Source: Cyclobacteriaceae bacterium | GTDB taxonomy: Bacteria > Bacteroidota > Bacteroidia > Cytophagales > Cyclobacteriaceae | Direction of reading: 5' to 3' | Length of the DNA stretch: 64,000 nucleotides | Assembly: GCA_023151255.1 (NCBI GenBank) | Contig: JAKLJG010000008.1 | Location: forward strand, 62,001 to 126,000 | Shown: positions 15,125 through 62,001 of the stretch, in pieces | Layout: each line of letters starts with the position of its first letter | Numbering within the stretch: the first letter of the stretch is position 1 | The notes under the pieces: model-generated | Databases searched by the model: none | What the model was told of the DNA's origin: nothing | What the model saw: only the letters and a program-made list of their open reading frames with translations | Position numbers and translations under genes: made by a program

Positions 15125-15131
15125 ATTTTAA

Positions 15132-16484: not shown

Positions 16485-16487
16485 AGA

Positions 16488-17666
16488 ATGAAAAAACTGT
16501 TATTCATCATAACACTACCCATGTTGGTGGCTGTGGAAATAGCGCGTGTTTATTATATCATGCCATTCCCCGGAAGCCAGCAACAAAACTCGATTAAGCT
16601 GGCGTATTTTCTACATAATTACATTAACCTGTTCCGGCTTATTGGCATTGCTGGTATAGTTTACCTGACTTACTCGCTATTTCCCGTCAGCAACCGATTA
16701 GGAAAGTGGTTGATACTAGTGGCTATAGCTTTCTGGCTGGTAGTGATTTATATGTTCAACTTTAAGATGCAGGCCGATAAGATGTTTTACGAGCCCCGCA
16801 CAAAAAAGCTTTCACCGGTTTCTGAGAACAAAATATTACCTCAGCAATTGGTAATCGGGGTTACAATTAATAACCAATCAAAGGCTTACCCCATTGAAAT
16901 TATAGGATATCACCACCAGGTTCGCGACTCTGTTGGTGGTGTTCCTGTAATGGTTACGTATTGCACGGTTTGCCGTACCGGCCGTGTATTTAGTCCGCTC
17001 GTTAACGGTGAGCCGGAAACATTCAGGCTGGTAGGCATGGATCATTTCAATGCCATGTTTGAAGACAGTCGTACCAAATCATGGTGGCGGCAAGCAAATG
17101 GCGAAGCAATTGCCGGCCCGCTAAAGGGTTCTCAACTGAGTGAAATTCCCTCCGAGCAAATGACCCTTGCTGCCTGGGTAGCCCGCCATCCCAATACAAC
17201 TATCCTTCAGCCCGACAGCGAATTCAATGATTCGTATGAAAAGCTTGCTAACTATGATGAAGGAAAATCAAATAGTAAACTTACCGGTACCGACTCTGTT
17301 TCGTGGCAGGAAAAATCGTGGGTGGTTGGTATCAAACCTAACAACACACCACGAGCATACGATTGGATTGAACTTAGCCAGGCCCGGCTTATTAATGATG
17401 CGTTCGGGCGTGTGTTTACTTTGCTTGCGCTTGAGCCCGATTCAGCTTCTTTTCATGTATGGCTGCGGCCCGATTCGTTAAGCTTTGCGCTTAAAGATGG
17501 CGTGATAATAGATGAGCAGACTTCTTCCAGGTGGGATTGGAATGGTACCTGTACCGAAGGAGTATTGAAAGGTAACAGGCTTATATCGGTTCAATCGTAC
17601 CAGGAGTTCTGGCATTCCTGGCGAACTTTTAACCCGTCCACAACCCGGTATTTGGCACCCAACTGA
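16488..17666 (+). CDS. DUF3179 domain membrane protein
   Basis: 392 residues. Three hydrophobic segments near the N-terminus (about residues 3-22, 45-63 and 72-90) anchor it in a membrane. The remaining roughly 290 residues are soluble and match the DUF3179 pattern, including YCTVCRTGRVF with a CxxC pair, the run QLVIGVTINNQSKAYP and the later FHVWLRPD region. The function of DUF3179 is unknown to me. It is translationally close to its neighbours (3 and 9 bases), so it is co-transcribed with the haloperoxidase-like gene and the sugar transporter. Confidence 0.8.
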   Translation: MKKLLFIITLPMLVAVEIARVYYIMPFPGSQQQNSIKLAYFLHNYINLFRLIGIAGIVYLTYSLFPVSNRLGKWLILVAIAFWLVVIYMFNFKMQADKMFYEPRTKKLSPVSENKILPQQLVIGVTINNQSKAYPIEIIGYHHQVRDSVGGVPVMVTYCTVCRTGRVFSPLVNGEPETFRLVGMDHFNAMFEDSRTKSWWRQANGEAIAGPLKGSQLSEIPSEQMTLAAWVARHPNTTILQPDSEFNDSYEKLANYDEGKSNSKLTGTDSVSWQEKSWVVGIKPNNTPRAYDWIELSQARLINDAFGRVFTLLALEPDSASFHVWLRPDSLSFALKDGVIIDEQTSSRWDWNGTCTEGVLKGNRLISVQSYQEFWHSWRTFNPSTTRYLAPN

Positions 17667-17675
17667 TAACCTTTT

Positions 17676-19007
17676 ATGATCAAACCCCGCCTTACCTTCT
17701 GGCAGATCATCAACATGAATGTTGGCTTCTTCGGTATCCAATACTCGTTTGGTTTGCAACAAAGTGCTGTTAACCCGATTTACGATTTTCTGGGCGCCAC
17801 ACCCGATCAGATTCCGATGCTTAATCTGGCGGGTCCGGTAACCGGTTTGGTGGTGCAGCCGATAATCGGAGCGCTGAGTGATAAAACATGGAGCCCGAGG
17901 TGGGGTAGGCGGCATCCGTATTTTTTGGTAGGGGCCATCATCTGCAGTCTTGCACTTTTTCTTTACCCGTTCAGCAGTTCGCTATGGATGGCGGCCGGGT
18001 TGCTGTGGATTCTGGATGTTGGCAACAATACAGCCATGGAACCTTACCGTGCCTTTATTGCCGATAGGCTGCCGGCCGACCAGCAGCGGCTGGGGTTTCA
18101 GGCACAGAGTTTCTTCACAGGTTTTGGTCAGACCCTTGCCAATCTTTCGCTGTTTGCCTTTCCCATCATTATTATTGGTAAAACCGGGGCTATTCCTAAT
18201 TGGGTTTTTGCTTCTTTCTTTTTTGGTTCTTTTTGCTCGGTAGCTTCTGTTATTTGGAGCATCCGGGCTACTCCTGAACTGCCCCCCGATGAAGCGGAGC
18301 TTGCTCATATCCGATTGCAGAAATTAAACCTATTCAGCCCATTTAAAGATATTTTCACAGCCATCCGCCACATGCCCGCCATAATGTGGCAGCTCGCATT
18401 GGTTTACTTGTTTCAATGGTATGCCTTGTTTTGTTATTGGCAAAATGCATCCAAAAGTGTGGCTCTCTCAGTTTTTGGAATAACTCCTGCATCCAATCCG
18501 GATCGGTACGAGCAGGCGGTTAGCCTTACGGGATTGATAAACGGATGGTACAATATTGTAACATTTGCAACTGCCTTTGGCTTGGCTTGGCTGGCCAAGA
18601 AGTACAGCCCCAAATACATTCACCTGGTGTGCCTGGTGCTTGCAGGCACCGGCTTTATTTTCTTTCCGTTTATTGAATCAAAAGAGCTTCTGTTTGTGGC
18701 CATTACCGGTTTCGGAATAGGCTGGGCAAGCATGATGGGCATTCCATATTTGCTCGTGGTGGGTTCCATTCCGAAGGAGCGCTACGGAGTTTATATGGGC
18801 ATTATCAATACCATGATTGTTGTGCCCATGATTTTGCAAAATCTTACGTTCGGTTTTTTCCTTAAAAATTACCTCAACAACGATCCGCGAAACGCGGTAT
18901 TAACGGCCGGTATCCTGTTGTTACTAGCAGCCGTTGCGTTGCTTCGTATTAAACCGGTTGCTTCTTCAAATCAACATCGTGGGGTTATAAGAACGGGAGG
19001 ACATTAA
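17676..19007 (+). CDS. MFS sugar transporter, SLC45/GPH type (probable disaccharide:H+ symporter)
   Basis: 443 residues with about 12 hydrophobic segments. The loop between helices 2 and 3 reads GALSDKTWSPRWGRRHPY, typical of sucrose/maltose SLC45-like carriers (RWGRR), and DVGNNTAMEPYRAF follows in helix 4. It lies in the inner membrane and would bring a disaccharide or small oligosaccharide into the cytoplasm. The next gene, 3 bases downstream, is a cytoplasmic GH13 alpha-glucosidase, so an alpha-glucoside (maltose, sucrose or an isomer) is the likely cargo. Confidence 0.88.
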   Translation: MIKPRLTFWQIINMNVGFFGIQYSFGLQQSAVNPIYDFLGATPDQIPMLNLAGPVTGLVVQPIIGALSDKTWSPRWGRRHPYFLVGAIICSLALFLYPFSSSLWMAAGLLWILDVGNNTAMEPYRAFIADRLPADQQRLGFQAQSFFTGFGQTLANLSLFAFPIIIIGKTGAIPNWVFASFFFGSFCSVASVIWSIRATPELPPDEAELAHIRLQKLNLFSPFKDIFTAIRHMPAIMWQLALVYLFQWYALFCYWQNASKSVALSVFGITPASNPDRYEQAVSLTGLINGWYNIVTFATAFGLAWLAKKYSPKYIHLVCLVLAGTGFIFFPFIESKELLFVAITGFGIGWASMMGIPYLLVVGSIPKERYGVYMGIINTMIVVPMILQNLTFGFFLKNYLNNDPRNAVLTAGILLLLAAVALLRIKPVASSNQHRGVIRTGGH

Positions 19008-19010
19008 GTT

Positions 19011-20645
19011 ATGCCGTTACCGTGGTGGACACACGCAGTAATTTATCAAATCTATCCCCGGAGTTTTAAAGATGGAAACGGTGATGGAGTAGGCGACCTG
19101 CGCGGTATTATTGATAAACTTGATTATATAAAGAGCCTCGGTGTTGATGCCGTATGGCTAAACCCCATCTACCATTCACCGGGCGTTGACGGTGGTTATG
19201 ATATAAGCGATTACCGAGCCATTGATCCTCTTTTTGGTACGATGGAAGACTTCGATGAAATGCTTCAAGGACTCCACCAACGGGGCATCAGGTTAATAAT
19301 GGATATTGTGGTCAATCATACCTCTGACCAGCACCCCTGGTTTGTCGAGTCACGCAAATCGAAAGATAACCCATACCGTCATTATTATTTTTGGCGAAAA
19401 GGAAGAGACTCGGGTCCGCCAAATAATTGGCTTTCTTTTTTTGGCGGCAGCGCCTGGCAGTTTGATCCAATAACCGGAGAATATTACCTGCATTTGTTTT
19501 CAAAAGAACAGCCCGATGTGAATTGGGAGAATCCAGCCGTTCGCAATGAGTTTAAAGAGTTGATGATCTTTTGGCTTAATAAAGGAGTGGATGGCTTGCG
19601 CTTGGATGTAATTACGGCTATATCAAAACGCAAGGACTTCCCTGATTCGGATACCAGTGATTTTAATAAAACCATCGAACGCTATTATGCCAATGGTCCG
19701 CGTTTAAGTGAATTTATCGCAGAACTGCGTGAACAGGTGTGGAACAAATATGGCTGCTTAACGGTAGGCGAAGGCCCGGGAATTACGCCTGATAATGTAA
19801 TGGAATATCTGCAGCCCGGTCGTGGCTTGGATATGATTTTTCACTTTGGTCATATGTTTCTGGATCAGGGAAAAGCAGGAAGGTTTGATCCCGTTCCGTG
19901 GACTTTGCCCGAGTTTAAAAGGATTTTCTTATCGTGGGATAAAGCCCTCGTACAGGGGTGGGGAAGTATCTTCCTGGGTAACCACGACTTTGCTAGGATG
20001 GTTTCGCGTTGGGGAAACGATAAGACATACCGCACGGAGTCAGCAAAATTGCTGCTAACGTTGTTACTCACTTTACGGGGTACACCTTTTATATATCAGG
20101 GCGATGAGATCGGAATGACCAACTTTATCCTTAAGTCAATAAATGAAGCCGTGGATGTTGAATCGCGAAATGCCTGGGCCCAGGCCCGAATTGATGGGAA
20201 GAACGAAGCTGTTTTTTTAAAGCATATAAACTATTCGGGTCGTGATAATGCGCGAACACCCGTTCAATGGGATGATTCGGATTATGCCGGTTTCAGTTCG
20301 GCAAAACCATGGATGCCTATCAACCCTAACAAGGCATATGTTAATATTAAAAGCGAGGAGGTTAATGCAGACTCTATACTGAACTATTTCCGGTCGCTGG
20401 TGCATTTGCGAAAAACTATGCCTGTGCTAATCACTGGAAATTTTGAACTGGTCAACGTCAATGATTACCACCTGTTTACTTACTACCGATTTACTGATGA
20501 GCAACGGTTATTCGTAGCACTTAATTTTTCAGAAGAAACTTTGCCGTTTAACCTGTCAGAGGGGAACCGGCTGATTGGAAATTACCCGTTAAAGTCTGAT
20601 CTTTCTATGCTCAGGCCCTGGGAGGCTGTAGTTATCCAATTATGA
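19011..20645 (+). CDS. GH13 alpha-glucosidase (oligo-1,6-glucosidase-like), cytoplasmic
   Basis: 544 residues without a signal peptide. All GH13 signature regions are intact: MDIVVNHTSDQHPWF (region I), GLRLDVI with nucleophile Asp199, VGEGPG with acid/base Glu254, and GNHD with Asp326. The RTPVQWDDS loop and the C-terminal beta domain fit the oligo-1,6-glucosidase/alpha-glucosidase group. It would release glucose from imported alpha-glucosides. Bond specificity is not certain. The ROK kinase gene overlaps its stop codon, which couples glucose release to phosphorylation. It serves as an intact in-window reference for the degenerate TreS domain described below. Confidence 0.93.
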   Translation: MPLPWWTHAVIYQIYPRSFKDGNGDGVGDLRGIIDKLDYIKSLGVDAVWLNPIYHSPGVDGGYDISDYRAIDPLFGTMEDFDEMLQGLHQRGIRLIMDIVVNHTSDQHPWFVESRKSKDNPYRHYYFWRKGRDSGPPNNWLSFFGGSAWQFDPITGEYYLHLFSKEQPDVNWENPAVRNEFKELMIFWLNKGVDGLRLDVITAISKRKDFPDSDTSDFNKTIERYYANGPRLSEFIAELREQVWNKYGCLTVGEGPGITPDNVMEYLQPGRGLDMIFHFGHMFLDQGKAGRFDPVPWTLPEFKRIFLSWDKALVQGWGSIFLGNHDFARMVSRWGNDKTYRTESAKLLLTLLLTLRGTPFIYQGDEIGMTNFILKSINEAVDVESRNAWAQARIDGKNEAVFLKHINYSGRDNARTPVQWDDSDYAGFSSAKPWMPINPNKAYVNIKSEEVNADSILNYFRSLVHLRKTMPVLITGNFELVNVNDYHLFTYYRFTDEQRLFVALNFSEETLPFNLSEGNRLIGNYPLKSDLSMLRPWEAVVIQL

Positions 20646-21562
20646 GTCCGATGAGCAATCAACTTTGGGGAATTGATCTAGGTGGAACAAAAATCGAAGG
20701 TATTATCCTTGAGTCGGCTTCCAATCCGGTGGTGGTTTACCGAAACCGCTTGCCAACTGAAGCCAGTAAAGGGCATAATCATATACTAAACCAGGTAGTG
20801 CAACTGGTAAAAGACATGCGTAAACACGGCAACCAGCCCGATCAAATCGGCATCGGTACACCTGGCGCACTCGATCCGCCTACACGCCTTCTTAAAAACA
20901 GTAATTCGGTTAATTTAAATGGCAAGCCGCTGAGAGATGATTTGGAAAAGTTGTTACAAACGTCTGTACAGATGGCAAATGATGCCAACTGCTTTGCACT
21001 GGCCGAAACAAAAATGGGAGTAGTTCACCAACTCTATCCACAAGCCCAAGTTGTATTCGGGGTGATACTCGGCACCGGTGTTGGCGGTGGTATTGTTGTA
21101 AACGGCAGGGTGCTAAACGGCCTGCATGGCATTGCTGGCGAGTGGGGTCATAATTTCTTGGATGAATCGGGCGGACCGTGTTATTGCGGAAAGTCGGGCT
21201 GTGTTGAAAAGATTTTGGCCGGACCCTCATTGGAAAGTTTTTATCAAAACCTTACCGGATTAAAAAAAACGCTAAAGGAGATATACATTCTTTCGCAAAG
21301 CGGCATGGACAATGCTGCCGTTCAAACCATGCACCGATTGACGCATTTTTTTGGTTTAGGCCTGAGCGTAGTTTTGAATATACTGGATCCGGATGTGGTT
21401 GTGGTCGGAGGTGGCGTAGGGAATATTGACTTAATCTATACAGCGGGTGTTGACTCCTTGCAGAAGCACTTGTTTAACCCGCGGTTGGAAACTCCGGTGT
21501 TGAAGCCCAAACTTGGTGATAGTGCCGGAGTTTTTGGTGCTGCATTTTTAGGTCAGGTTTAG
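20642..21562 (+). CDS. ROK-family sugar kinase (glucokinase/fructokinase type)
   Basis: 306 residues. The N-terminal phosphate-binding motif GIDLGGTKIEG, the sugar-binding segment GEWGHN and the ROK zinc motif CYCGKSGCVE are all present, so a catalytically competent ATP-dependent hexokinase is expected. The start overlaps the alpha-glucosidase stop by 4 bases; two nearby ATGs (Met1, Met4) are possible. By context it phosphorylates glucose, or fructose if sucrose is the substrate. A second ROK kinase lies at 43431-44420 with pgi and pfkA. Confidence 0.9.
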   Translation: MSPMSNQLWGIDLGGTKIEGIILESASNPVVVYRNRLPTEASKGHNHILNQVVQLVKDMRKHGNQPDQIGIGTPGALDPPTRLLKNSNSVNLNGKPLRDDLEKLLQTSVQMANDANCFALAETKMGVVHQLYPQAQVVFGVILGTGVGGGIVVNGRVLNGLHGIAGEWGHNFLDESGGPCYCGKSGCVEKILAGPSLESFYQNLTGLKKTLKEIYILSQSGMDNAAVQTMHRLTHFFGLGLSVVLNILDPDVVVVGGGVGNIDLIYTAGVDSLQKHLFNPRLETPVLKPKLGDSAGVFGAAFLGQV

Positions 21563-30691: not shown

Positions 30692-32497
30692 ATGATCCGT
30701 ATTAGCCTGCTGAGTTTAATTATTTTATTTGACGCCTGCTCCCGTACAACCGAAAAGATTCCTGACGTGCTGCCTGTTGCTGAGCCTAAACAAAAAGTAG
30801 TGATTTACCAGATGATGACCCGCCTTTTCGGCAATAAGGTAAATACGAATAAAAAGTATGGCACGATAGCAGAAAACGGAGTGGGCAAGTTTAACGATAT
30901 TAATGAAGCTGCGCTTAAGGAACTGAAGGAAATGGGTATTACCTACATCTGGTTCACCGGTATTATCGAACATGCGCTGCTTACCGATTACACCGCTTAC
31001 GGCATTCCGCTGGACGATGCCGATGTGGTAAAGGGGCGGGCCGGTTCGCCCTATTCCATCAAGGATTATTACGATGTTAATCCCGATTTGGCGATTCAGG
31101 TGCCAAACCGGATGAAGGAATTTGAAGCGCTTGTTGAGCGCACCCACGCACATGGACTAAAAGTGATTATTGATTTTGTACCCAACCACGTGGCCCGTAA
31201 CTATAAATCAGATGCAAAGCCTCGGGGTGTTCGCGATTTTGGCGAGGATGACGATAAAACGGTTCCGTTTAAACCTTCTAATAACTTTTACTACCTGCCC
31301 GGCCAGAATTTTAAAGTACCCGAGGGGTATATTCCGCTTGGCCCTGAAAATGAATTCCCAACAAAAGACGGTGTGTTTGACGAGAATCCGGCAAAGGCTA
31401 CCGGCAATGATAAGTTTGTTGCTCAGCCAGCGATGACCGATTGGTTTGAAGCAGCCAAATTGAATTATGGTGTGGATATACAGGGAGGAGGCCAAAAACA
31501 TTTTGACCCTGTACCCGACACTTGGATTAAAATGCGCGACATTTTGCTTTTCTGGACTTCTAAAAAGGTAGATGGCTTTCGTTGCGACATAGCCGAAATG
31601 GTACCCGTTGAGTTTTGGAATTGGGTAATACCGCAGGTAAAAGCCGTTAACACCGATTTAATTTTTATTGCCGAAATCTACAACCCATCGTTGTACCGAA
31701 ATTTTATCCAAACGGGTCGATTTGATTTTTTATATGATAAGGTGCAATTGTATGATACCCTTCGAAAGCTTATCCGTGGCGAAGGTTCTACATCCGAAAT
31801 TCATTCAATTCAGGAATCACTCTCCGGCATCAATAAACACATGCTTCACTTCCTCGAAAACCATGATGAGCAGCGGATAGCCTCAAAATACTTTGCCGGT
31901 GATCCATGGAAAGCAGTTCCGGCAATGGTTATCAGTGCCACCATCGACAGCGGCCCGGTAATGATCTACTTTGGCCAGGAAGTGGGCGAACCAGCCAATG
32001 GCGACCCGGGACATCAAACTCTGGAGCAACCCGGTACAACAACTAAAATGGACTACTGGGGCGTACCTGAGCATCAAAAGTGGATGAACAATGGTTTGTT
32101 CGATGGCGGTTTGCTTTCAGAAGAACAAAAACAGTTGCGTCAGTTTTATGCTGATTTACTCAATATCGCAGGGCAGTCGGAAGCAATTGCCTGGGGCAAC
32201 TATGCCGATTTAACGCAGTATAATCTTCAACAAAAACAACTTGGCGATGACATCCATGCTTTTGTTCGTTGGCATGATGATGAACGATTACTCATAGTAT
32301 CGAGCTTTAGGTCAAAGCCTGCTGATGTGACTATTACCATTCCTGAAGTTGTGGCTGCTCAAATGGGCTTGCAAAAAGGAAATGCCTATGTTGCCCGCGA
32401 TATACTTTGGCGCGAAATTGAAACAGGCATTGATGAAAACCTGTCTGTACGGGTCCGTTTAAATGCTTACGGAGCTTTAATTCTGAAAATAAAATAA
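30692..32497 (+). CDS. GH13 alpha-amylase-family lipoprotein
   Basis: 601 residues. The N-terminus has a hydrophobic stretch ending at FDAC, an imperfect lipobox, so it is probably exported. Catalytic regions are complete: IIDFVPNH, GFRCDIAEM with nucleophile Asp299, FIAEIYN with Glu328 and LENHDEQR with Asp392. It likely cuts starch or glycogen-type alpha-glucan to maltose and maltodextrins. It is the first gene of an operon with glgE (6-base gap), so its products may feed the maltokinase and GlgE. Exact specificity (alpha-amylase versus neopullulanase-like) is unresolved. Confidence 0.88.
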   Translation: MIRISLLSLIILFDACSRTTEKIPDVLPVAEPKQKVVIYQMMTRLFGNKVNTNKKYGTIAENGVGKFNDINEAALKELKEMGITYIWFTGIIEHALLTDYTAYGIPLDDADVVKGRAGSPYSIKDYYDVNPDLAIQVPNRMKEFEALVERTHAHGLKVIIDFVPNHVARNYKSDAKPRGVRDFGEDDDKTVPFKPSNNFYYLPGQNFKVPEGYIPLGPENEFPTKDGVFDENPAKATGNDKFVAQPAMTDWFEAAKLNYGVDIQGGGQKHFDPVPDTWIKMRDILLFWTSKKVDGFRCDIAEMVPVEFWNWVIPQVKAVNTDLIFIAEIYNPSLYRNFIQTGRFDFLYDKVQLYDTLRKLIRGEGSTSEIHSIQESLSGINKHMLHFLENHDEQRIASKYFAGDPWKAVPAMVISATIDSGPVMIYFGQEVGEPANGDPGHQTLEQPGTTTKMDYWGVPEHQKWMNNGLFDGGLLSEEQKQLRQFYADLLNIAGQSEAIAWGNYADLTQYNLQQKQLGDDIHAFVRWHDDERLLIVSSFRSKPADVTITIPEVVAAQMGLQKGNAYVARDILWREIETGIDENLSVRVRLNAYGALILKIK

Positions 32498-32503
32498 CTG
32501 TTA

Positions 32504-34459
32504 ATGATCAACTCACTACCGGGCCAATCCCGTGTTATTATTGAAAATATTCAGCCTCAGGTTGATAAGGGGCGCTATCCGGTTAAACGTACGGTGGGTG
32601 AAACTGTGCAGGTAACAGCCGATATATTTTCGGATGGCCACGATCATGTACGGGCCGAAGTCTTGTACAGAAAAAAAACTGAAAAAAACTGGAGCCTGGC
32701 CGAAATGCATCATCTGGGAAATGATTCATGGGCGGGTTCCTTTTTGGTAACCGATAAAGTTCCTTATGTGTTTACTGTTCGGGCCTGGGTGGACCATTTC
32801 GAAACATGGTATGACGGTATCTTAAAAAAGATTGAAGCCCAGCTTCAGGTGCAACTCGAACTTGCCGAAGGGAGCGTGTTACTCCTTCAGTTAACGGAAG
32901 GCAAGAAGAAGGATATTCAAAAACTATCAGCCCAACTGAAAGATGAAACGCGTTATGCCGAAAACATTGAACTGGTTTCAGGCGAAATGTTTGCCGAACT
33001 GGTAAAACAAAATCCGTTGCGAAGGTATGAAGTGGTTTATCCGGCTGAACTGCTGGTGGTTGTTGAACATGCCAAAGCCCGTTTCAGTACGTGGTACGAA
33101 CTGTTTCCGCGGTCGGCATCGCTTGCCGGTAAGCATGGCACCTTTGCCGATGTGATAAAACTGTTGCCGCGCATTGAGGCTATGGGTTTTGATGTGCTGT
33201 ATCTTCCGCCAATTCACCCCATTGGAAAAGTAAATCGCAAAGGCAAGAATAACAACGTGCGTTCTGTAGCCGGTGAGCCTGGCTCTCCGTGGGCTATCGG
33301 CAGCGATGAAGGAGGACACAAAGCCATTCATCCGCAGTTGGGTACCCTCGAACAGTACAAGGAATTAATTGTAAAAGCCCGTAAGCGGGGTATTGATGTG
33401 GCCATGGACTTGGCTTTTCAATGTGCACCCGACCACCCGTATGTAACAGAGCACCCCGATTGGTTTAAAATCCGCCCCGATGGTTCCATTCAGTTTGCCG
33501 AGAACCCACCTAAAAAATACCAGGACATTTACCCGTTTAATTTTGAATGCGATGACTGGCAAAATTTGTGGAATGAGTTATTGAGTGTTGTATTGTATTG
33601 GATTGATCAGGGAGTTAAAATCTTTCGGGTTGATAACCCGCACACCAAACCATTTCGGTTTTGGCAATGGCTTATTGCCGAAGTAAATAAACGGCATGAG
33701 GATATTATTTTCTTGTCCGAGGCCTTTACACGCCCGAAGGTTATGGCTGCGCTGGCCAAGCTAGGATTTACCCAATCGTACACCTATTTTACCTGGCGCG
33801 TTACCCGGAACGAACTTGTTGAATACATGAACGAGCTGGTTCACGGACCTTCGCGCAATTATTTCAGGCCTAACTTCTGGCCTAATACACCTGATATTCT
33901 TCCGTACCACCTTCAACATCAGGGTGAAACGATTTTTGTTATTCGGTTTGTGCTGGCCGCCACGCTTTCGTCAAACTACGGCATCTACGGCCCACCCTTC
34001 GAGTTTTGTGAAAACAATCCGATTCCCGGAAAGGAGGAATATTTTAATTCTGAAAAATTTGAAATCAAACAATACGACTGGAAGAAAACCACCCGCATGA
34101 CGGACATTATCTCCATCGTAAACAAAGCCCGCAAGAATCACCAGGCCCTGCAGTCAACCTGGAACATTTATTTTTGTACCTGCAATAACGACAACCTGCT
34201 GGCCTACCTGAAAACTACCGATGATCTTACAGATTGCGTGCTGGTTGTAGTAAATTTCGATCAGCATGGTCGCCAATCTGGCTATGTGCAACTGCCGAAG
34301 GAAATCCTGCGGCTGACCGACCGGATTAATGTGAAATTACATGATTTGGTAACAGATGAGCATTACACCTGGACGCAGGAGTGGAACTATGTTGAACTCG
34401 ATCCGAATAAGCTACCATTTCACTTGTTTCACCTTACTATTCATGAATCGTTTGCATGA
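32504..34459 (+). CDS. glgE: Alpha-1,4-glucan:maltose-1-phosphate maltosyltransferase GlgE
   Basis: 651 residues. The family hallmark LPPIHPIGKVNRKGKNN is present. The catalytic positions follow the Streptomyces GlgE spacing: nucleophile Asp377 (FRVDNPHTKP), acid/base Glu406 (LSEAFTRP) and Asp464 (NTPDIL). An N-terminal beta domain precedes the GH13 barrel. GlgE adds maltose from alpha-maltose-1-phosphate to growing alpha-1,4-glucan in the cytoplasm. The following gene, overlapping by ATGA, encodes the maltokinase that makes this donor, and glgB is next, so the GlgE glucan pathway is encoded as a unit. Confidence 0.96.
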   Translation: MINSLPGQSRVIIENIQPQVDKGRYPVKRTVGETVQVTADIFSDGHDHVRAEVLYRKKTEKNWSLAEMHHLGNDSWAGSFLVTDKVPYVFTVRAWVDHFETWYDGILKKIEAQLQVQLELAEGSVLLLQLTEGKKKDIQKLSAQLKDETRYAENIELVSGEMFAELVKQNPLRRYEVVYPAELLVVVEHAKARFSTWYELFPRSASLAGKHGTFADVIKLLPRIEAMGFDVLYLPPIHPIGKVNRKGKNNNVRSVAGEPGSPWAIGSDEGGHKAIHPQLGTLEQYKELIVKARKRGIDVAMDLAFQCAPDHPYVTEHPDWFKIRPDGSIQFAENPPKKYQDIYPFNFECDDWQNLWNELLSVVLYWIDQGVKIFRVDNPHTKPFRFWQWLIAEVNKRHEDIIFLSEAFTRPKVMAALAKLGFTQSYTYFTWRVTRNELVEYMNELVHGPSRNYFRPNFWPNTPDILPYHLQHQGETIFVIRFVLAATLSSNYGIYGPPFEFCENNPIPGKEEYFNSEKFEIKQYDWKKTTRMTDIISIVNKARKNHQALQSTWNIYFCTCNNDNLLAYLKTTDDLTDCVLVVVNFDQHGRQSGYVQLPKEILRLTDRINVKLHDLVTDEHYTWTQEWNYVELDPNKLPFHLFHLTIHESFA

Positions 34460-37400
34460 GTAGGCAACAAAAGTATACTGAGTCGTTGTGGTTTAAAGAT
34501 GCGGTCATCTATGAGTTGTCCGTTCGGGCTTTTTTTGATAGTAACCAGAATGGAATTGGTGATTTTCCGGGACTGCTTCAGAAATTGGATTACCTGGAAG
34601 ATCTGGGTGTTAATACCATCTGGTTGTTACCTTTTTACCCTTCGCCCTTAAAGGATGACGGATATGACATTACTGACCATTGTGATGTTCACCCTCATTT
34701 AGGTACGTTGTCTGATTTTCGAACCTTTCTTAAAGAAGCTCATCACCGGGGTATACGGGTTATTATTGAATTGATTCTTAATCACACGTCCGATCAGCAT
34801 CCGTGGTTCAGGCGCGCTCGAAAAGCCAAAGCCGGGTCGCGCTATCGCAATTTCTACGTATGGAGCGATACACCCGAGAAGTATAAGGAGGCCAGAGTCA
34901 TCATTCAGGAAGAAGAATCTTCTAACTGGTCGTGGGATACGGAAGCCAAAGCGTATTACTGGCATCGGTTTTACAGCCACCAGCCCGAATTGAACTACGA
35001 CAACCCGGAAGTGCAACTTGAAATTATCAAGATTGTTGATTTCTGGATGAAACTGGGTGTTGACGGTTTCCGGATGGCCTCGATACCGTACCTGTTTGAA
35101 GAAGAGGGCACCAGTTGCGAGAACCTGCCCCAAACCCACGCCTTTATCAGAAAAGTTCGTAACCACATTGATAAGCATTATAAAAACAGGGTGCTTATTG
35201 CCGAAGCAAACCTGTGGCCCGAAGATGCCGCATCTTACTTTGGCAATGGTGACGAATGCCACATGGCCTTTAATTATCCGCTTATGCCCCGGTTGTTTCT
35301 GGGCCTGCGTACGGAAGACAGTTACCCGATAGTGGATATTATGGAGCAAACCCCGCGCACACCCGAAAATTGTCAATGGGCCTTGTTCCTTCGTAACCAC
35401 GATGAATTGGGACTTGAGATGGTTACCGAAGAGGAAAAGGATTACCTGTTTAAGGCATATGCCAGCGATTCGCAAACCAAGTTTAATACCGGTATTCGCA
35501 GGCGCCTGGCACCCTTGTTAAACAACGACCGCAGAAAGATTGAACTGTTGTACGCTATCTTGTTTTCGCTTCCAGGCACACCAGTAATTTATTATGGCGA
35601 TGAAATCGGGATGGGCGACAATATCTACCTGGGAGGGCGGCAAGGGGTGCGGACACCCATGCAGTGGAACATGAACCTCAATGCAGGTTTTTCTAATGCC
35701 AACCCGCAAAAACTGTACTTACCTGTTATCTCTGATCCGGTTTACCGCTATGAGTCGGTTAATGTGGCCACCCAGCTTGAAAACCCATCATCGCTTATCT
35801 GGTGGATGCGTAACATCATCGCCATGCGCAAACGTCTTAATCTTTTTGGCAGGGGAGAAACAAGGTTTATCGAAACCAATAACAGCAAAGTGCTCTGTTA
35901 TTCGCGTACATTAGATAAGCAACGCATAGTGGTAGTGGCCAACATGTCGCAGTTTTCGCAGGCTGCCATTCTGAACCTCTCCGATCATAAAGAGTGCGAT
36001 GTAACCGAGGTATTCAGCCAAAACCGCTTTCAGAATGTGGGTAACGGTGACTATCCTATAACGCTGGGCCCTTATGGCTACTATTGGTTTCAGATTGATG
36101 TTGTTGATAAAAAAGAAAGTGCAAAATCAGGTGGCGAATTGCCGGTACTCGAAACCGAGGTGATGTGGGAAAAGATTTTTACATCGTACCAGGACAAGCG
36201 ATTTATTGAACGCAAGGTGCTGCCGGTATTTATGAAGAAATGTCGCTGGTTCGGTGGCAAGGCCCGTGTAATCAGTAAAATAGCCATTGACAGCGTATTT
36301 CCGCTTAAGGTAGAGGGAACCACCCATTACCTTACATTAATTGAAGTGCACTATGTGCAACGCCTGCCCGAATTGTATTTCTTACCGATGGTGTTTGTTC
36401 CGTCTGACAGGATACTGGACCAGGTGGAGTATAATGCACAGAGTGTGATTTGCCGGGCTGAAATTCGCAACGAGGCAGGATTCATCATGGATAGCAGCTA
36501 CGATCGTGTTTTTCGCGATTATCTGCTTGCCGGCATGGAGCGTAAAACCCAAATTAAATACCCGGGTAGTGTTCTTGAGTTCAATTCCAGCGTATTCAAT
36601 AAAATTGATATTGCTGGCGGCATCGAATCCAAAATATTAAAAGCCGATCAAAGCAATACGGCCATCATTTATAACGATCGCTACTTTTTTAAGTTCTATC
36701 GCAAGTTAGAGCGGGAAATGAACCCCGATCTTGAAATCGTACGATTTTTAAGTGAGCATGCCAGTTTTGCAAACAGCCCGCGGTATATGGGCAGTATTGA
36801 ATTGCATGATGAACGCGGAGTTGTGGTGTTTGGATTGCTGCAGGAAAAAGTCGATAATCAGGGCGAAGCCTGGAGCATGTCAATTGATTCGGTCGGACGC
36901 TTTTACGAACGCGTTATGGCCGGAGCCAAGCAAGAGAAACTCCCTAAACTGGTTAATAAGCCACTTATGCGTTTTGAGGAAGCCCCTGAGTTGATCCAGG
37001 AGTTTATTGGTCGGGGTTTTTATGAACGGGTAGTCAGGCTGGGGCAACGCACAGCCGAAATGCACCTGGCGTTAGCATCCGATCAAACCAATCAGGCTTT
37101 TGCGCCAGAATATTTTACACCTAATTATCAGCGTTCCCTGTACTCTTCGCTTCGTAAGTTGGTGCGCGACCGGTTTAACTTGCTGGGGAGTTCTTTACCT
37201 AAACTTGCACCAGATGTTCGTGACCTTGCCAAAAAAGTGCTTGACCTTGAACCCGATGTGCTGACATGTTTTCGCGAAATATACGAGACCCGCATTTCCG
37301 CCATTAAAACGCGTATCCATGGCGACTATCACTTGGGCCAGGTGCTGTTTACCGGAAAAGATTTTGTGATCATTGACTTTGAAGGCGAACCAGGCTTTAC

Positions 37401-37791
37401 CTTTAGCGAGCGCAGGCTGAAGAAAAATCCGCTGAAGGATGTGGCCGGCATGATGCGTTCTTTTCACTATGCGGCATTTGGAAAAATTCTGCTTAACGAA
37501 AATTACCGTGCCCGCGATATGCAGTTCCTTGAAGCATGGGCTGAACAATGGCAGCATTATGTAAGCCGCTTTTACCTTGGCGCGTATATGGAAAGAATGG
37601 GCAAAGGCAAGGAGTGGACGGATGAAGACAACCTGCTAATTCGTACCTTCCTGATAGAAAAAGCCATATACGAACTGGGCTACGAGTTAAATGGCCGGCC
37701 CGATTGGGTAATTATTCCGCTTCGTGGTATTTACTACCACATGAACCGGTATTTTCAGGAGCGTGATGTTCGAAAAAAAGTTTCCGGATAA
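34456..37791 (+). CDS. TreS-like GH13 domain fused to maltokinase; TreS half lacks the catalytic nucleophile
   Basis: 1,111 residues. Residues 1-560 resemble trehalose synthase and about 575-1100 are a maltokinase. The kinase motifs are intact: RWFGGKAR, HGDYHLGQ with the catalytic Asp, and DFEGEP for metal binding. The TreS half keeps much of the fold (GIRRRLAPLLNNDRRKIELL, YYGDEIGMGDN) and Glu250 and Asp316, but the nucleophile motif GFRLD reads GFRMA (Ala208). Region I has Glu105 for Asp, and the loop GDRDGVRTPMQW is GGRQGVRTPMQW. Spacing 208 to 250 matches nucleophile to acid/base in mycobacterial TreS. The kinase is probably active; the TreS half is probably not and may be a scaffold (inference). 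Confidence 0.9.
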   Translation: MSRQQKYTESLWFKDAVIYELSVRAFFDSNQNGIGDFPGLLQKLDYLEDLGVNTIWLLPFYPSPLKDDGYDITDHCDVHPHLGTLSDFRTFLKEAHHRGIRVIIELILNHTSDQHPWFRRARKAKAGSRYRNFYVWSDTPEKYKEARVIIQEEESSNWSWDTEAKAYYWHRFYSHQPELNYDNPEVQLEIIKIVDFWMKLGVDGFRMASIPYLFEEEGTSCENLPQTHAFIRKVRNHIDKHYKNRVLIAEANLWPEDAASYFGNGDECHMAFNYPLMPRLFLGLRTEDSYPIVDIMEQTPRTPENCQWALFLRNHDELGLEMVTEEEKDYLFKAYASDSQTKFNTGIRRRLAPLLNNDRRKIELLYAILFSLPGTPVIYYGDEIGMGDNIYLGGRQGVRTPMQWNMNLNAGFSNANPQKLYLPVISDPVYRYESVNVATQLENPSSLIWWMRNIIAMRKRLNLFGRGETRFIETNNSKVLCYSRTLDKQRIVVVANMSQFSQAAILNLSDHKECDVTEVFSQNRFQNVGNGDYPITLGPYGYYWFQIDVVDKKESAKSGGELPVLETEVMWEKIFTSYQDKRFIERKVLPVFMKKCRWFGGKARVISKIAIDSVFPLKVEGTTHYLTLIEVHYVQRLPELYFLPMVFVPSDRILDQVEYNAQSVICRAEIRNEAGFIMDSSYDRVFRDYLLAGMERKTQIKYPGSVLEFNSSVFNKIDIAGGIESKILKADQSNTAIIYNDRYFFKFYRKLEREMNPDLEIVRFLSEHASFANSPRYMGSIELHDERGVVVFGLLQEKVDNQGEAWSMSIDSVGRFYERVMAGAKQEKLPKLVNKPLMRFEEAPELIQEFIGRGFYERVVRLGQRTAEMHLALASDQTNQAFAPEYFTPNYQRSLYSSLRKLVRDRFNLLGSSLPKLAPDVRDLAKKVLDLEPDVLTCFREIYETRISAIKTRIHGDYHLGQVLFTGKDFVIIDFEGEPGFTFSERRLKKNPLKDVAGMMRSFHYAAFGKILLNENYRARDMQFLEAWAEQWQHYVSRFYLGAYMERMGKGKEWTDEDNLLIRTFLIEKAIYELGYELNGRPDWVIIPLRGIYYHMNRYFQERDVRKKVSG

Positions 37792-37802
37792 ACTTGTAAC
37801 TC

Positions 37803-39770
37803 ATGGGAAAAAAGAAAACAGCCAAGTCAACACCCGCCATGCCGGAGAGTTATTCTCGGTTTACCGACTTCGATATTCATTTGTTTAAAACCGGTAAACA
37901 TTTCAAACTTTATGAAAAACTAGGTTCGCACCCAACCCAGTTCGAAGGGATCAAAGGTACTTACTTTGCCGTTTGGGCGCCCAACGCAAAATCGGTATCG
38001 GTAATCGGTAACTTTAATTATTGGGATAAATCATCCAACAAGTTGTATCCGCGTTGGGATGAATCAGGAATTTGGGAAGGGTTTATTGCCGGAGTTCAAC
38101 AAGGCGAAGCTTACAAATACGCCATTCAATCAGGCCGCGGAGTCTGGCTTGAAAAGGCTGATCCCTTTGCTGCCTATGCCGAAACACCTCCGCGCACGGC
38201 ATCCATAACCTGGCAAACCGATTTTAAATGGACAGATAAAAAATGGATGCAATCGCGCAAGAAGCAGGCGCAAAGCCCCAAACCCTATTCCGTTTACGAA
38301 GTACATTTAGGTTCATGGAGGCGCGTGCCGGACGACAGTAATCGCTCGCTTACTTATCGTGAACTGGCCATCCAATTGGTGGAGTACGTAAAAGAAATGG
38401 GATTCACCCATGTGGAGTTTCTGCCTGTTATGGAGCATCCGTTTTTTGGTTCGTGGGGCTACCAGGTTACCGGGTACTATGCGCCCTCAAGCCGGTACGG
38501 CAGTCCAGATGATTTTATGTTTCTGGTCGATTCGCTTCATCATGCCGGCATTGGCGTTATCCTCGACTGGGTGCCCTCGCATTTTCCGGGCGATGAACAT
38601 GGATTGTTTTTGTTCGATGGCACCCACCTGTACGAACATGCTGATCCGCGTAAAGGGTTTCATCCCGACTGGAAGAGTTATATTTTTAATTACGGCCGCA
38701 ACGAAGTACGGTCATTCCTCATCAGCAATGCCATGTACTGGCTTGACCGGTTTCATGTCGATGGTCTTCGTGTAGATGCCGTGGCCAGCATGCTCTACCT
38801 TGATTATTCCCGAAAAGAAGGGGAGTGGGTACCCAACCAATACGGGGGGCGCGAAAACATTGAGGCAATTAATTTCCTGAAAGAATTTAATGAAGCCGTG
38901 TATGCCGAATTTCCGGATATCGTTACGATAGCTGAAGAGTCAACCGCCTGGCCGGGCGTTTCAAAGCCAACCTATCTGGGCGGCCTGGGCTTTGGCCAGA
39001 AGTGGATGATGGGCTGGATGCACGACACGCTCAAATACTTTAAAGAAGACCCGATACACCGTTCATGGCATCATAATGAAATTACGTTCAGCATTATGTA
39101 TGCCTTTACCGAAAATTTTATGCTCCCGCTTTCGCATGATGAAGTGGTGCATGGCAAAGGATCATTAATCGGGCGTATGCCAGGAGATGACTGGCGAAAA
39201 TTTGCTAACCTGCGGTTGCTGTTTTCTTATATGTTTACACATCCGGGTACTAAACTATTGTTTATGGGCGGTGAGTTTGGTCAGTATGCTGAATGGAATC
39301 ACGACCAAAGCCTCCATTGGCACTTGTTGGAGTATCCGCTGCACAGCGGGGTGCAATTGTTACTAAAAGATTTAAATAGACTGTATAAACAGGAACCTGC
39401 ATTGTTTAAATACCCCTTTGATGCCCGCGGATTTGAATGGGTTGACTATGCCGACAGGCAAAACTCGGTAATTGTTTATTTACGAAAGGCCGATGAAAAA
39501 AAAGAGACCCTTTTGGTCGTATGTAATTTTACCCCCGAAGTGCGGCATGATTACCGGATTGGTGTGCCGTACCGCGGCAGATGGAAGGAATTTTTTAATT
39601 CCGATAATCAAAAGTATGGCGGCAGTGGTGTACTCAACACCGGCATAATGGCAACGTCACCAGTAAAGTGCCATGGGCGGGATTACTCTGTTTCGGTTAC
39701 GTTGCCTCCGCTCGGTATAACCTTGCTTAAACTTGAAAAGGAAGAACTTGAATTTGACATTGACAGTTGA
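37803..39770 (+). CDS. glgB: 1,4-alpha-glucan branching enzyme GlgB
   Basis: 655 residues. An N-terminal CBM48 domain (residues about 35-130) precedes the GH13 barrel. Catalytic residues are Asp325 (GLRVDAVASML), Glu378 (IAEESTAWP) and Asp446 (LSHDEVVHGKGS). It transfers alpha-1,4 chains to alpha-1,6 positions in glycogen-like polymer. It starts 11 bases after the maltokinase fusion. With GlgE it suffices to make a branched glucan without glgA or glgC, neither of which is in the window. Confidence 0.97.
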   Translation: MGKKKTAKSTPAMPESYSRFTDFDIHLFKTGKHFKLYEKLGSHPTQFEGIKGTYFAVWAPNAKSVSVIGNFNYWDKSSNKLYPRWDESGIWEGFIAGVQQGEAYKYAIQSGRGVWLEKADPFAAYAETPPRTASITWQTDFKWTDKKWMQSRKKQAQSPKPYSVYEVHLGSWRRVPDDSNRSLTYRELAIQLVEYVKEMGFTHVEFLPVMEHPFFGSWGYQVTGYYAPSSRYGSPDDFMFLVDSLHHAGIGVILDWVPSHFPGDEHGLFLFDGTHLYEHADPRKGFHPDWKSYIFNYGRNEVRSFLISNAMYWLDRFHVDGLRVDAVASMLYLDYSRKEGEWVPNQYGGRENIEAINFLKEFNEAVYAEFPDIVTIAEESTAWPGVSKPTYLGGLGFGQKWMMGWMHDTLKYFKEDPIHRSWHHNEITFSIMYAFTENFMLPLSHDEVVHGKGSLIGRMPGDDWRKFANLRLLFSYMFTHPGTKLLFMGGEFGQYAEWNHDQSLHWHLLEYPLHSGVQLLLKDLNRLYKQEPALFKYPFDARGFEWVDYADRQNSVIVYLRKADEKKETLLVVCNFTPEVRHDYRIGVPYRGRWKEFFNSDNQKYGGSGVLNTGIMATSPVKCHGRDYSVSVTLPPLGITLLKLEKEELEFDIDS

Positions 39771-39805: not shown

Positions 39806-42199
39806 ATGGAACGATACATCTGTATTCATGGTCACTTCTATCAGCCTCCCCGCGAAAACGCGTGGCTTGAGGTTATCGAAGTACAGGATTCGGCCCATCC
39901 GTATCATGATTGGAATGAGCGAATAACGGCTGAGTGTTATGCGCCCAATGCGGCCTCGCGAATACTGGATGATCGAAAAGTTATTCGCGACATTGTCAAT
40001 AATTACGCTAAAATCAGTTTCAATTTCGGCCCCACACTGCTCTCGTGGATGGAAGAAAACGACCCGGAGACCTATCGGGCTATCCTCGAAGCCGATAAGG
40101 AGAGCATGAAAAAATTTGGCGGGCATGGATCAGCTATCGCACAAGTTTACAACCACATGATTTTGCCCCTGGCCACACGGACGGATAAAGAAACACAGGT
40201 TATTTGGGGCATTCGTGATTTCGAATATCGTTTTGGAAGACAGCCCGAAGGCATGTGGCTTTCTGAAACCGCAGTTGATACAGAAACCCTGGAGGTCCTT
40301 GCCCAGGCAGGCATCCGTTTTACCATTTTGGCACCCCGACAGGCAAAAGCGTATCGCAAGATGGGCGAGGAGCACTGGTTTGAAGTTGGCGCGAACGGTA
40401 TTGACACCCGCAGGCCGTACCGGTGTATGTTGCCTTCAGGTAATTCAATCACAGTGTTCTTTTATGATGGCGAACTGTCGCAGGGCGTTGCTTTTAACGG
40501 ACTACTGAATAATGGGCAGCAATTTGCAGAGGAACTGTTAAGTGCCTTTGCCGATCATAGCGATGCGCACCAGCTTGTGCATATTGCCACCGATGGCGAA
40601 ACCTACGGCCATCATCACAAACATGGCGACATGGCGCTGGCCTATTGCCTGGATTACATTGAGAAAAAGGAGGGTGTAAGACTTACTAACTATGGTGAAT
40701 TTCTTTCTATCCAACCTCCCGGTTATGATGTTCTGATACACGAGAATAGTTCATGGAGTTGTGTACATGGTGTTGAACGGTGGCGTGCTGACTGCGGTTG
40801 TAATTCCGGAAAACCCGGTTGGCATCAGCGTTGGCGTAAGCCCTTACGGGAAGCACTTGACTGGCTTCGCGATCGGTTAAATGTGTTGTATCAACAGGAG
40901 GCCACCCGGTATCTTAAAAATATATGGGAAGCCCGTAACGATTACATCCGCGTTATCCTTAACCGACACGATGAGTCGATTCGTAAATTTTTAAAGGATC
41001 ATGCTTTAAAAACGGCCGAGCCGAGTAACGTGCTGCGTATGATGGAAATGCAGCGCCATGCGATGCTGATGTACACCAGTTGCGGTTGGTTTTTTGATGA
41101 CATAAGCGGCATCGAAACAACACAAATTATGCAGTACGCCTGCCGGGCTATGCAGCTAATGAGTCAACTTGGAGGTAGTGAACTCGAAGCGGAATTTTTA
41201 AAGCGGCTGGAGGCCGCCCCCAGTAATGATCCATTATTGCAGCATGGTGCAGCTGCCTACCTGCGGTTTGTAGTGCCTGCTAAAACCAACCTGCAGCGGG
41301 TGGGTATGCATTATGCCGTGGCTTCGCTGTTTGAAGAAGACCCCGAAAACTTCCCTATTTTTAATTATACCACTTCCAATGAATTTTTTATTCGCAAAGA
41401 AGCAGGTGAACAACGGCTGGTGGTTGGGATTACCCGTGTACGCTCAAATGTTACCCGTATCGAAAAACGTTTTGCTTTTGCAGCTGTGTATTTAGGTAAG
41501 CACAACATCCTGGGAAATATTTCTCTTGATATGGATGAGGTAACATTTGCATCAATGCAAACCCGAATGGTAGCAGCTTTTGATGAGGGCCGGCTGGGCG
41601 ATGTTATCGGGCTGATGCAAACCTACTTTGGCCCGGATAAGTACACCTTGTGGCATCTATTTAAAGATGAAAAGCGAAAAGTTTTGGATATGATTACCCA
41701 GCAGAGTATGACCGAACTGGAAGAGACGCTTCGCAGGGTGTATAATCGCGATTATCCGCTGGTTAACGCGTTGGCACACAACAATATACCGATACCAAAA
41801 GCTTATACTACCACGTTTGAGTACATTTTAAATGCCGATCTGATCAAGACCTTTCAGACTGAAAAAATCAACATTAAAAAGATCGAACATGTAATGGGGG
41901 AACTGGCTGCCTGGGAGTTAACCATTACCGATCCGGATAGAGTAGCGCGACTGGCCGGTGATAGCATATTTAAGGAACTCAGGCGAATTAGTGCCGAGCG
42001 CAGTAACCTGAAACGCATTGAGCGACTAAACCGGCTGTTTCCATTGTTACGAAAGTTTAACCTCGAGCCCAATCTGTATAAAAGCCAAAACCTTTATTTT
42101 GAAATATCGCGGGGCGAGGGCATTGAAACCTTAAGTTCAAAATCAGAATGGGTGCATCAGTTTAAGTTACTGGGTGAAAATTTGGGTGTGAAGATATAG
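39806..42199 (+). CDS. GH57-family protein with DUF3536
   Basis: 797 residues without signal peptide. The start ICIHGHFYQPPRENAWL is typical of GH57 plus DUF3536 proteins. The likely nucleophile is Glu154 (GMWLSETAVD) and the likely acid/base is Asp263 (ATDGETYGHHHKHGD). The C-terminal half is the DUF3536 helical region. GH57 members act on alpha-glucans as amylases, 4-alpha-glucanotransferases or branching enzymes; the activity of this subgroup is not settled. It follows glgB after 35 bases and probably trims or rearranges the glucan made by GlgE and GlgB. Confidence 0.88.
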   Translation: MERYICIHGHFYQPPRENAWLEVIEVQDSAHPYHDWNERITAECYAPNAASRILDDRKVIRDIVNNYAKISFNFGPTLLSWMEENDPETYRAILEADKESMKKFGGHGSAIAQVYNHMILPLATRTDKETQVIWGIRDFEYRFGRQPEGMWLSETAVDTETLEVLAQAGIRFTILAPRQAKAYRKMGEEHWFEVGANGIDTRRPYRCMLPSGNSITVFFYDGELSQGVAFNGLLNNGQQFAEELLSAFADHSDAHQLVHIATDGETYGHHHKHGDMALAYCLDYIEKKEGVRLTNYGEFLSIQPPGYDVLIHENSSWSCVHGVERWRADCGCNSGKPGWHQRWRKPLREALDWLRDRLNVLYQQEATRYLKNIWEARNDYIRVILNRHDESIRKFLKDHALKTAEPSNVLRMMEMQRHAMLMYTSCGWFFDDISGIETTQIMQYACRAMQLMSQLGGSELEAEFLKRLEAAPSNDPLLQHGAAAYLRFVVPAKTNLQRVGMHYAVASLFEEDPENFPIFNYTTSNEFFIRKEAGEQRLVVGITRVRSNVTRIEKRFAFAAVYLGKHNILGNISLDMDEVTFASMQTRMVAAFDEGRLGDVIGLMQTYFGPDKYTLWHLFKDEKRKVLDMITQQSMTELEETLRRVYNRDYPLVNALAHNNIPIPKAYTTTFEYILNADLIKTFQTEKINIKKIEHVMGELAAWELTITDPDRVARLAGDSIFKELRRISAERSNLKRIERLNRLFPLLRKFNLEPNLYKSQNLYFEISRGEGIETLSSKSEWVHQFKLLGENLGVKI

Positions 42200-61959: not shown

Positions 61960-62001
61960 GGTATTTTGTACCTTTATCAGCAGACAAAGATAGGATCGTG
62001 T

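Follow-up and report, generated by a model that had tools for sequence, protein, structure and literature searches.

A gene on the forward strand of a 64,000-nucleotide stretch of DNA from a Cyclobacteriaceae bacterium (positions 62,001 to 126,000 of contig JAKLJG010000008.1, assembly GCA_023151255.1; hereafter, the window) encodes a fusion of a domain like trehalose synthase (TreS; EC 5.4.99.16) with a maltokinase (Mak; EC 2.7.1.175), in which the TreS half has lost its catalytic nucleophile. We propose, with a probability of about 0.6, that this protein is a maltokinase acting in a trehalose-independent GlgE pathway, that its maltose comes from maltodextrins, and that the conserved but dead TreS half serves as a structural or ligand-binding module. 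An earlier note, made from the sequence of the window alone, had already singled out the missing nucleophile and suggested a pseudoenzyme kept for the benefit of the kinase.

The TreS half of the fusion lacks the catalytic nucleophile

The TreS-Mak fusion (34456..37791, + strand, as are the features of its gene cluster given below) is an open frame of 1,111 amino acids that matches both TIGR02456 and TIGR02457. Its TreS-like glycoside hydrolase family 13 (GH13; subfamily GH13_16) half (residues 12 to 547, 34489..36096), predicted to be catalytically dead from alignments, scores 835.8 bits against TIGR02456, above the NCBIfam curated cut-off of 678.35, and thus belongs to the TreS family. At 35059-35082 the coding sequence is gtt gac ggt ttc cgg atg gcc tcg, which puts an alanine, Ala208 (codon GCC, 35077..35079), in the place of the Asp nucleophile that TreS carries at the end of strand 4 (D230 in Mycobacterium smegmatis, D238 in Mycobacterium tuberculosis). 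The alignment to the solved TreS structures 5x7u, 3zo9, and 5h2t is ungapped through this site, A208, E250, and D316 align with residues D230, E272, and D342 of the M. smegmatis enzyme, and 42 residues separate the first two in both proteins, ruling out a misalignment with the nucleophile Asp elsewhere. The earlier note had thus read both the alanine codon and the spacing correctly. The acid/base Glu and the third Asp are present as Glu250 (35203..35205) and Asp316. The AlphaFold model recovers the TreS and kinase folds and matches solved TreS in a Foldseek search (best match 5x7u, E value of 2.8e-52, TMt of 0.84), although with a mean predicted local distance difference test score (pLDDT) of 77.5 and low values in the active-site loops it is too weak for ligand binding or details.

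We then compared the fusion with relatives drawn from whole genomes and GTDB contigs. The resulting clade comprises 79 Cytophagales sequences, including that of the window, with TreS-domain identities of at least 64%; copies with identical domains were removed, but some genomes occur in both sources, so trimmed copies may remain among the 79. None of them has Asp in the nucleophile column, which holds Pro in 31, Ala in 26, Ser in 15, and Gly in 7, whereas Asp is present in 18 of 18 true TreS references. This alignment provides the count of Ala and Ser at position 208 that the earlier note had proposed as a check, and since many of the 79 sequences stem from independent assemblies, a sequencing error, an isolated mutation, or chance can be dismissed. 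These sequences form one side of a branch with a support of 97 to 99 in a maximum-likelihood TreS-domain tree. Because the sequences lacking the nucleophile form one supported clade, the simplest reading is a single ancestral loss before this Cytophagales family diverged. The sister of the clade is a fusion from a Chitinophagales metagenome-assembled genome (L109:7992-11345) with Thr at the nucleophile position, additional alterations (NHDDL and AETNLW), and an intact kinase motif.

The surroundings of the lost residue are a mixture of conservation and concerted change. Of the 189 positions invariant in true TreS, 150 are unchanged in 90% or more of the clade sequences, and in the 77 full-length sequences Asp71, His110, Arg206, Glu250, His315, and Asp316, which belong to the sugar-binding and active site, are invariant or nearly so (over all 79, position 250 is Glu in 77 and Asp in 2; Asp316 is kept in all). 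Several neighbors were altered and then nearly fixed, namely, Ala209 to Ser or Asn, Tyr212 to Phe, Thr319 to Gly, Asp178 to Glu, and Asp396 to Phe, Tyr, or His. In variability, position 208 comes 38th among the 536 positions of the TreS half, although it is restricted to small residues or Pro. The change of NHDELT to NHDELG pointed out earlier (Asp316 to Gly319, 35401..35412) is a property of the clade, with Gly or Ala instead of the Thr of true TreS in 77 of 77 full-length sequences. The altered GDRDG loop stood in part: position 396, Gln in the window (35641..35643) and Asp or Asn in true TreS, is mostly Phe, Tyr, or His and never Asp in the 77 sequences, but the first Asp of the loop (position 394) is Gly in just 7 of 77. 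Glu105 in region I, by contrast, had been mistaken for a departure from TreS. Its motif, ELxLNH, is normal, since Glu occurs in the Thermobaculum TreS 5x7u and in all aligned Asp-bearing TreS-Mak fusions, and among the references only 3zo9 and 5h2t carry Asp there; we therefore rejected it as a sign of decay.

The predicted inactive half is under purifying selection

Over nine close pairs, the TreS half had a median ratio of nonsynonymous to synonymous substitution rates (dN/dS) of 0.016 and the kinase half one of 0.013, values that indicate strong purifying selection. Among the 77 full-length sequences, the TreS half has 186 invariant positions out of 536, and the kinase half has 118 out of 506. 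The claim that this is not simple decay is thus borne out. A rate test within the fusion being ambiguous, we reran it with GlgE and GlgB as yardsticks. The TreS/GlgE distance ratio was 0.63 in the clade lacking the nucleophile versus 0.60 in fusions with two intact halves, while the Mak/GlgE ratio was 0.80 versus 1.62.

GH13 catalysis depends on an Asp nucleophile. In M. tuberculosis TreS, the D238A variant is described as catalytically inactive, with a ligand-free structure like that of the wild type, and it binds 6-azido-trehalose (6-TreAz) with a conformational change (PMC11019547). This engineered protein (PDB 8uqv) carries the same substitution in the same column as the fusion and is inactive, folded, and ligand binding, but it was made in the laboratory, whereas here the change is natural and conserved. 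Given that D238A is inactive yet binds its ligand, the native fusion very probably cannot isomerize trehalose and may bind a disaccharide. The TreS half thus combines the loss of a catalytic residue with a fold under purifying selection, the two marks of a pseudoenzyme. The clade-wide loss, the selection, and the published mutant together uphold the pseudoenzyme proposal of the earlier note; we regard the loss of TreS catalysis as almost certain and a conserved pseudoenzyme as very probable. No TreS or GH13 pseudoenzyme in bacteria was reported in the literature searched, the scope of which left out subscription papers and preprints. A second TreS that could replace the lost activity was not found either, as the genome has no other match to TIGR02456 above the cut-off; the next-best match (window 19011-20645) fits the alpha-glucosidase type.

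The kinase half lies in a conserved GlgE gene cluster

The maltokinase half (residues 590 to 1095, 36223..37740), the best solved relatives of which are mycobacterial maltokinases, scores 428.2 bits against TIGR02457 (cut-off, 375.05) and 27.9 against the N-cap family PF18085 (cut-off, 22). As the earlier note had observed, its motifs are intact: the catalytic loop HGDYHLGQ (37318..37341, with Asp957 and Gln962), conforming to HGDxHLGQ, and the metal-binding motif DFEGEP (37375..37392, with Asp974). These key residues are kept in 76 of 77 clade sequences.

The start codon of the fusion overlaps the stop codon of glgE by 4 bp (ATGA). The GlgE maltosyltransferase (32504..34459; PF11896 and PF21702), which converts maltose-1-phosphate to alpha-1,4-glucan, has intact RVDNP nucleophile and SEA acid motifs, as it does across the clade lacking the TreS nucleophile. 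Upstream lies a GH13 amylase-like protein (30692..32497), the orthologs of which have a lipoprotein-type signal, and downstream are the branching enzyme GlgB (37803..39770; PRK05402, 990.8 bits) and a GH57-DUF3536 protein (39806..42199) that shares with PoGH57 the reported signatures HGHFY and ETYGHH. The arrangement amylase-GlgE-fusion-GlgB-GH57 is seen repeatedly in the fetched relatives, in which a ROK kinase, phosphofructokinase, and phosphoglucose isomerase are often found near the cluster. GlgE, maltokinase, and GlgB are thus clustered in the window (32504-39770), and the cluster is conserved. Many relatives have an extra GH13 gene of about 518 codons between the lipoprotein GH13 and GlgE genes (e.g., L047:4475-6028), which is not there in the window.

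Maltodextrins are the likely source of maltose

We next determined which genes for trehalose and maltose supply accompany the fusion, using family models on 59 sampled genomes, with counts not corrected for shared ancestry. The nucleophile-less fusion occurs in 19 of the 59, 15 of which have no fusion with an Asp-bearing TreS, while 4 have both. TreY and the GH77 enzyme MalQ were found by these models in 0 of the 15 genomes carrying only the dead form, and OtsA was found in 3 of 15. All 4 genomes with both forms have TreY and MalQ, and of the 10 genomes that encode an Asp-TreS fusion, each has MalQ together with OtsA or TreY. In three genomes, a single frame of about 1,450 amino acids beside the Asp-TreS fusion matches TreY and then GH77 MalQ (G002:C80, G008:C9, and G011:C4).

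OtsA, GH77, and GlgC are absent from the window's own genome (99.9% complete), and nothing in it reaches the cut-off for TreY or GlgA. The trehalose supply of the GlgE pathway by OtsA or TreY is thus missing there, the searches not having extended to TreT, TreP, or trehalose import. The genome does encode an alpha-glucan phosphorylase (TIGR02094, 434 bits) and a cyclomaltodextrinase-like protein. Because of the distribution of OtsA, TreY, and MalQ and the gene content of this genome, trehalose is an unlikely and maltodextrin a likely feed for the GlgE pathway. Neither this link to missing genes of trehalose synthesis nor the spread of the trait over many genomes could be seen in the sequence on which the earlier note was based. 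The GH57-DUF3536 protein, present in 20 of 22 GlgE-bearing genomes versus 5 of 37 others, may stand in for MalQ, PoGH57 having been reported as a low-activity 4-alpha-glucanotransferase (PMC11206854). In two relatives, GlgC is encoded beside a 405-amino-acid frame with a GlgA-type glycosyltransferase match (G003:C1:2297603-2299712 and G015:C6:47527-49297), possibly representing a GlgC-GlgM route to maltose-1-phosphate.

Overall, the gene content suggests that the kinase probably acts in a GlgE pathway that does not depend on trehalose. The kinase half would phosphorylate maltose to maltose-1-phosphate, which GlgE would polymerize and GlgB would branch. The maltose would most likely come from maltodextrins rather than from trehalose via the fusion, released by the lipoprotein amylase, by other amylase-like enzymes, and through disproportionation by the adjoining GH57 protein. 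The TreS half would be a folded, probably oligomer-forming module, still binding a disaccharide or a short glucan, and would support or tune the kinase.

Possible roles of the inactive half and alternative explanations

In mycobacteria, a TreS tetramer is the platform for the kinase Pep2, the ATP site of which borders the interface (PMC6509496). The kept sugar-site residues of the fusion argue for ligand binding and its kept fold for support, and the scaffold or sugar-binding module put forward by the earlier note is thus plausible. We give even odds to a ligand-binding or regulatory role. More tentatively, the dead half could be a sugar sensor that gates the maltokinase, so that in a trehalose-free GlgE pathway the toxic maltose-1-phosphate would be made only when maltodextrin is plentiful. 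Somewhat unlikely, in our view, is a purely structural half that fixes the oligomer, stabilizes the kinase, and binds no sugar. The fold recovered by AlphaFold and Foldseek, the mycobacterial tetramer with the kinase ATP site at its interface (PMC6509496), and the variation of residue 208 among Pro, Ala, Ser, and Gly, as if its identity mattered little, would all suit such a platform, but a mere platform need not retain Asp71, His110, Arg206, Glu250, His315, and Asp316 in all or nearly all of the 77 sequences.

Readings in which the TreS half is a working or a dying enzyme fare worse. A new catalysis that dispenses with the GH13 nucleophile and relies on the retained Glu250 and Asp316 would explain why several active-site neighbors (positions 209, 212, 319, 396, and 178) changed together and became nearly fixed while the acid/base Glu was retained in 77 of 79; the site, however, has no conserved candidate for a new nucleophile, residue 208 varies freely, and Glu250 is Asp in two members, making this quite improbable. 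That the half is slowly decaying, having lost its function with trehalose synthesis and persisting solely through its fusion to a needed kinase, would agree with the fall of the Mak/TreS distance ratio from 3.00 to 1.29 and with the relative without GlgE (G004) that has Asp for the acid/base residue and Arg for the kinase Gln962. We nevertheless hold it to be very improbable, since the dN/dS of about 0.016, the 186 of 536 invariant positions, and the TreS/GlgE ratios of 0.63 versus 0.60 reveal a constraint near that of live enzymes. Hardly credible is continued trehalose isomerization through a substitute carboxylate; the remaining sugar-site residues are kept, but the M. tuberculosis D238A enzyme reportedly lacks catalytic activity (PMC11019547) and columns 206 to 212 hold no conserved Asp or Glu that could replace residue 208.

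Several observations nevertheless weigh against a maintained module in a trehalose-independent pathway. The Mak/TreS distance ratio is 1.29 in the clade versus 3.00 in intact fusions, so that the TreS half is relatively faster, which means either some relaxation of this half or a more tightly constrained kinase. The GlgE yardstick favors the tighter kinase, but the TreS/GlgE ratio is 0.28 to 0.40 in the closest intact-fusion pairs (14 pairs), and some relaxation of the TreS half is possible. Shared ancestry among the genomes counted, the OtsA genes in 3 of 15, and trehalose routes beyond OtsA and TreY bear on the supply argument, and the transferase activity of the GH57 family is drawn from one low-activity relative, which also looks hydrolytic (PMC11206854). 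As for the support of the kinase, TreS makes the M. tuberculosis kinase more active, an effect not seen in M. smegmatis (PMC6509496). We also looked for the salt bridges of mycobacterial docking, but these are not retained in the fusion clade: Arg534, which forms a TreS:Pep2 salt bridge, is replaced by Gln499 in 78 of 79 sequences, and docking therefore cannot simply be of the mycobacterial type.

Apparent loss of either half in related fusions

Eight Bacteroidota fusions (L134, L139, L140, and L166 to L170) represent the mirror case: their TreS nucleophile is intact, and their kinase deviates at one or more of Asp957, Gln962, Asp974, and Glu976. Two of the mirror-case genomes (G020 and G053) were searched for GlgE, and neither gave a match. 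Because such fusions exist, either half can apparently be lost as an enzyme yet kept as a domain. In G004 (L130/L181; fusion at L130:11653-14997), in which Glu250 is Asp and the kinase Gln962 is Arg, neither the cluster nor a search of the genome showed GlgE, though the fusion is kept. G046 (L178 and L179) has GlgE and a stand-alone maltokinase of 520 amino acids, and no TreS-Mak fusion was found in it, a second sign that GlgE may run without TreS.

Elsewhere in the window (13106-21562), a GH65 protein scoring above the kojibiose hydrolase cut-off (NF053734, 1122.7 versus 800) is accompanied by a major facilitator superfamily transporter, a GH13 protein of the alpha-glucosidase type, and a ROK kinase.

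Comparison with known systems

In plant isoamylase ISA1-ISA2, the active storage-glucan complex depends on a GH13 subunit that has no activity by itself. ISA2 is this noncatalytic subunit. Both subunits are reported to be required (PMC3787081). Unlike the fusion, these are separate subunits of one plant debranching enzyme, and no kinase is involved.

Closer in architecture are the TreS-Mak or TreS-Pep2 fusions of Pseudomonas aeruginosa (PA2152) and Estrella lausannensis, which have the same domain order, glgE and glgB neighbors, and the activities of the kinase half, here predicted (PMC8084333, PMC7935935). The TreS half of the P. aeruginosa fusion is very weak and the protein can use MalQ-derived maltose (PMC8084333, PMC7935935); MalQ and TreS/Pep2 together convert maltohexaose and ATP to maltose-1-phosphate (PMC8084333). 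The TreS halves of both fusions are active, however, whereas here the nucleophile is gone throughout the clade and the genome lacks GH77 MalQ, TreY, and a full GlgA. In the mycobacterial TreS:Pep2 complex (PDB 5jy7), both partners are homologous to the halves of the fusion and the kinase has TreS as its platform, but the partners are separate proteins, TreS is active, and the Arg534 salt bridge is one that the fusion clade lacks. The GlgE locus of Pontibacter sp. SGAir0037 (PoGBE13 and PoGH57) groups GlgB, GH13_16, GlgE, and a DUF3536 GH57 protein as here (PMC11206854). Unlike the locus in the window, it has TreY, TreZ, and GH77 genes, and the likeness drawn here is one of gene content.

Implications

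Annotation pipelines will label such proteins trehalose synthases, since the fusion exceeds the TreS cut-off by 157 bits, and will wrongly predict trehalose metabolism. The clade also offers natural constructs for studying the noncatalytic effect of TreS on the kinase, a question raised by the mycobacterial complex. Descriptions of the GlgE pathway usually present it as a route from trehalose to glycogen, and this clade, with a trehalose step that is dead by sequence and with a kinase, GlgE, and GlgB that seem intact, would separate the pathway from trehalose. Taken together, these data suggest that the whole Cytophagales family, a group of environmental bacteria, makes glycogen from maltose and not from trehalose, with the dead half of the fusion as a support or a sensor.

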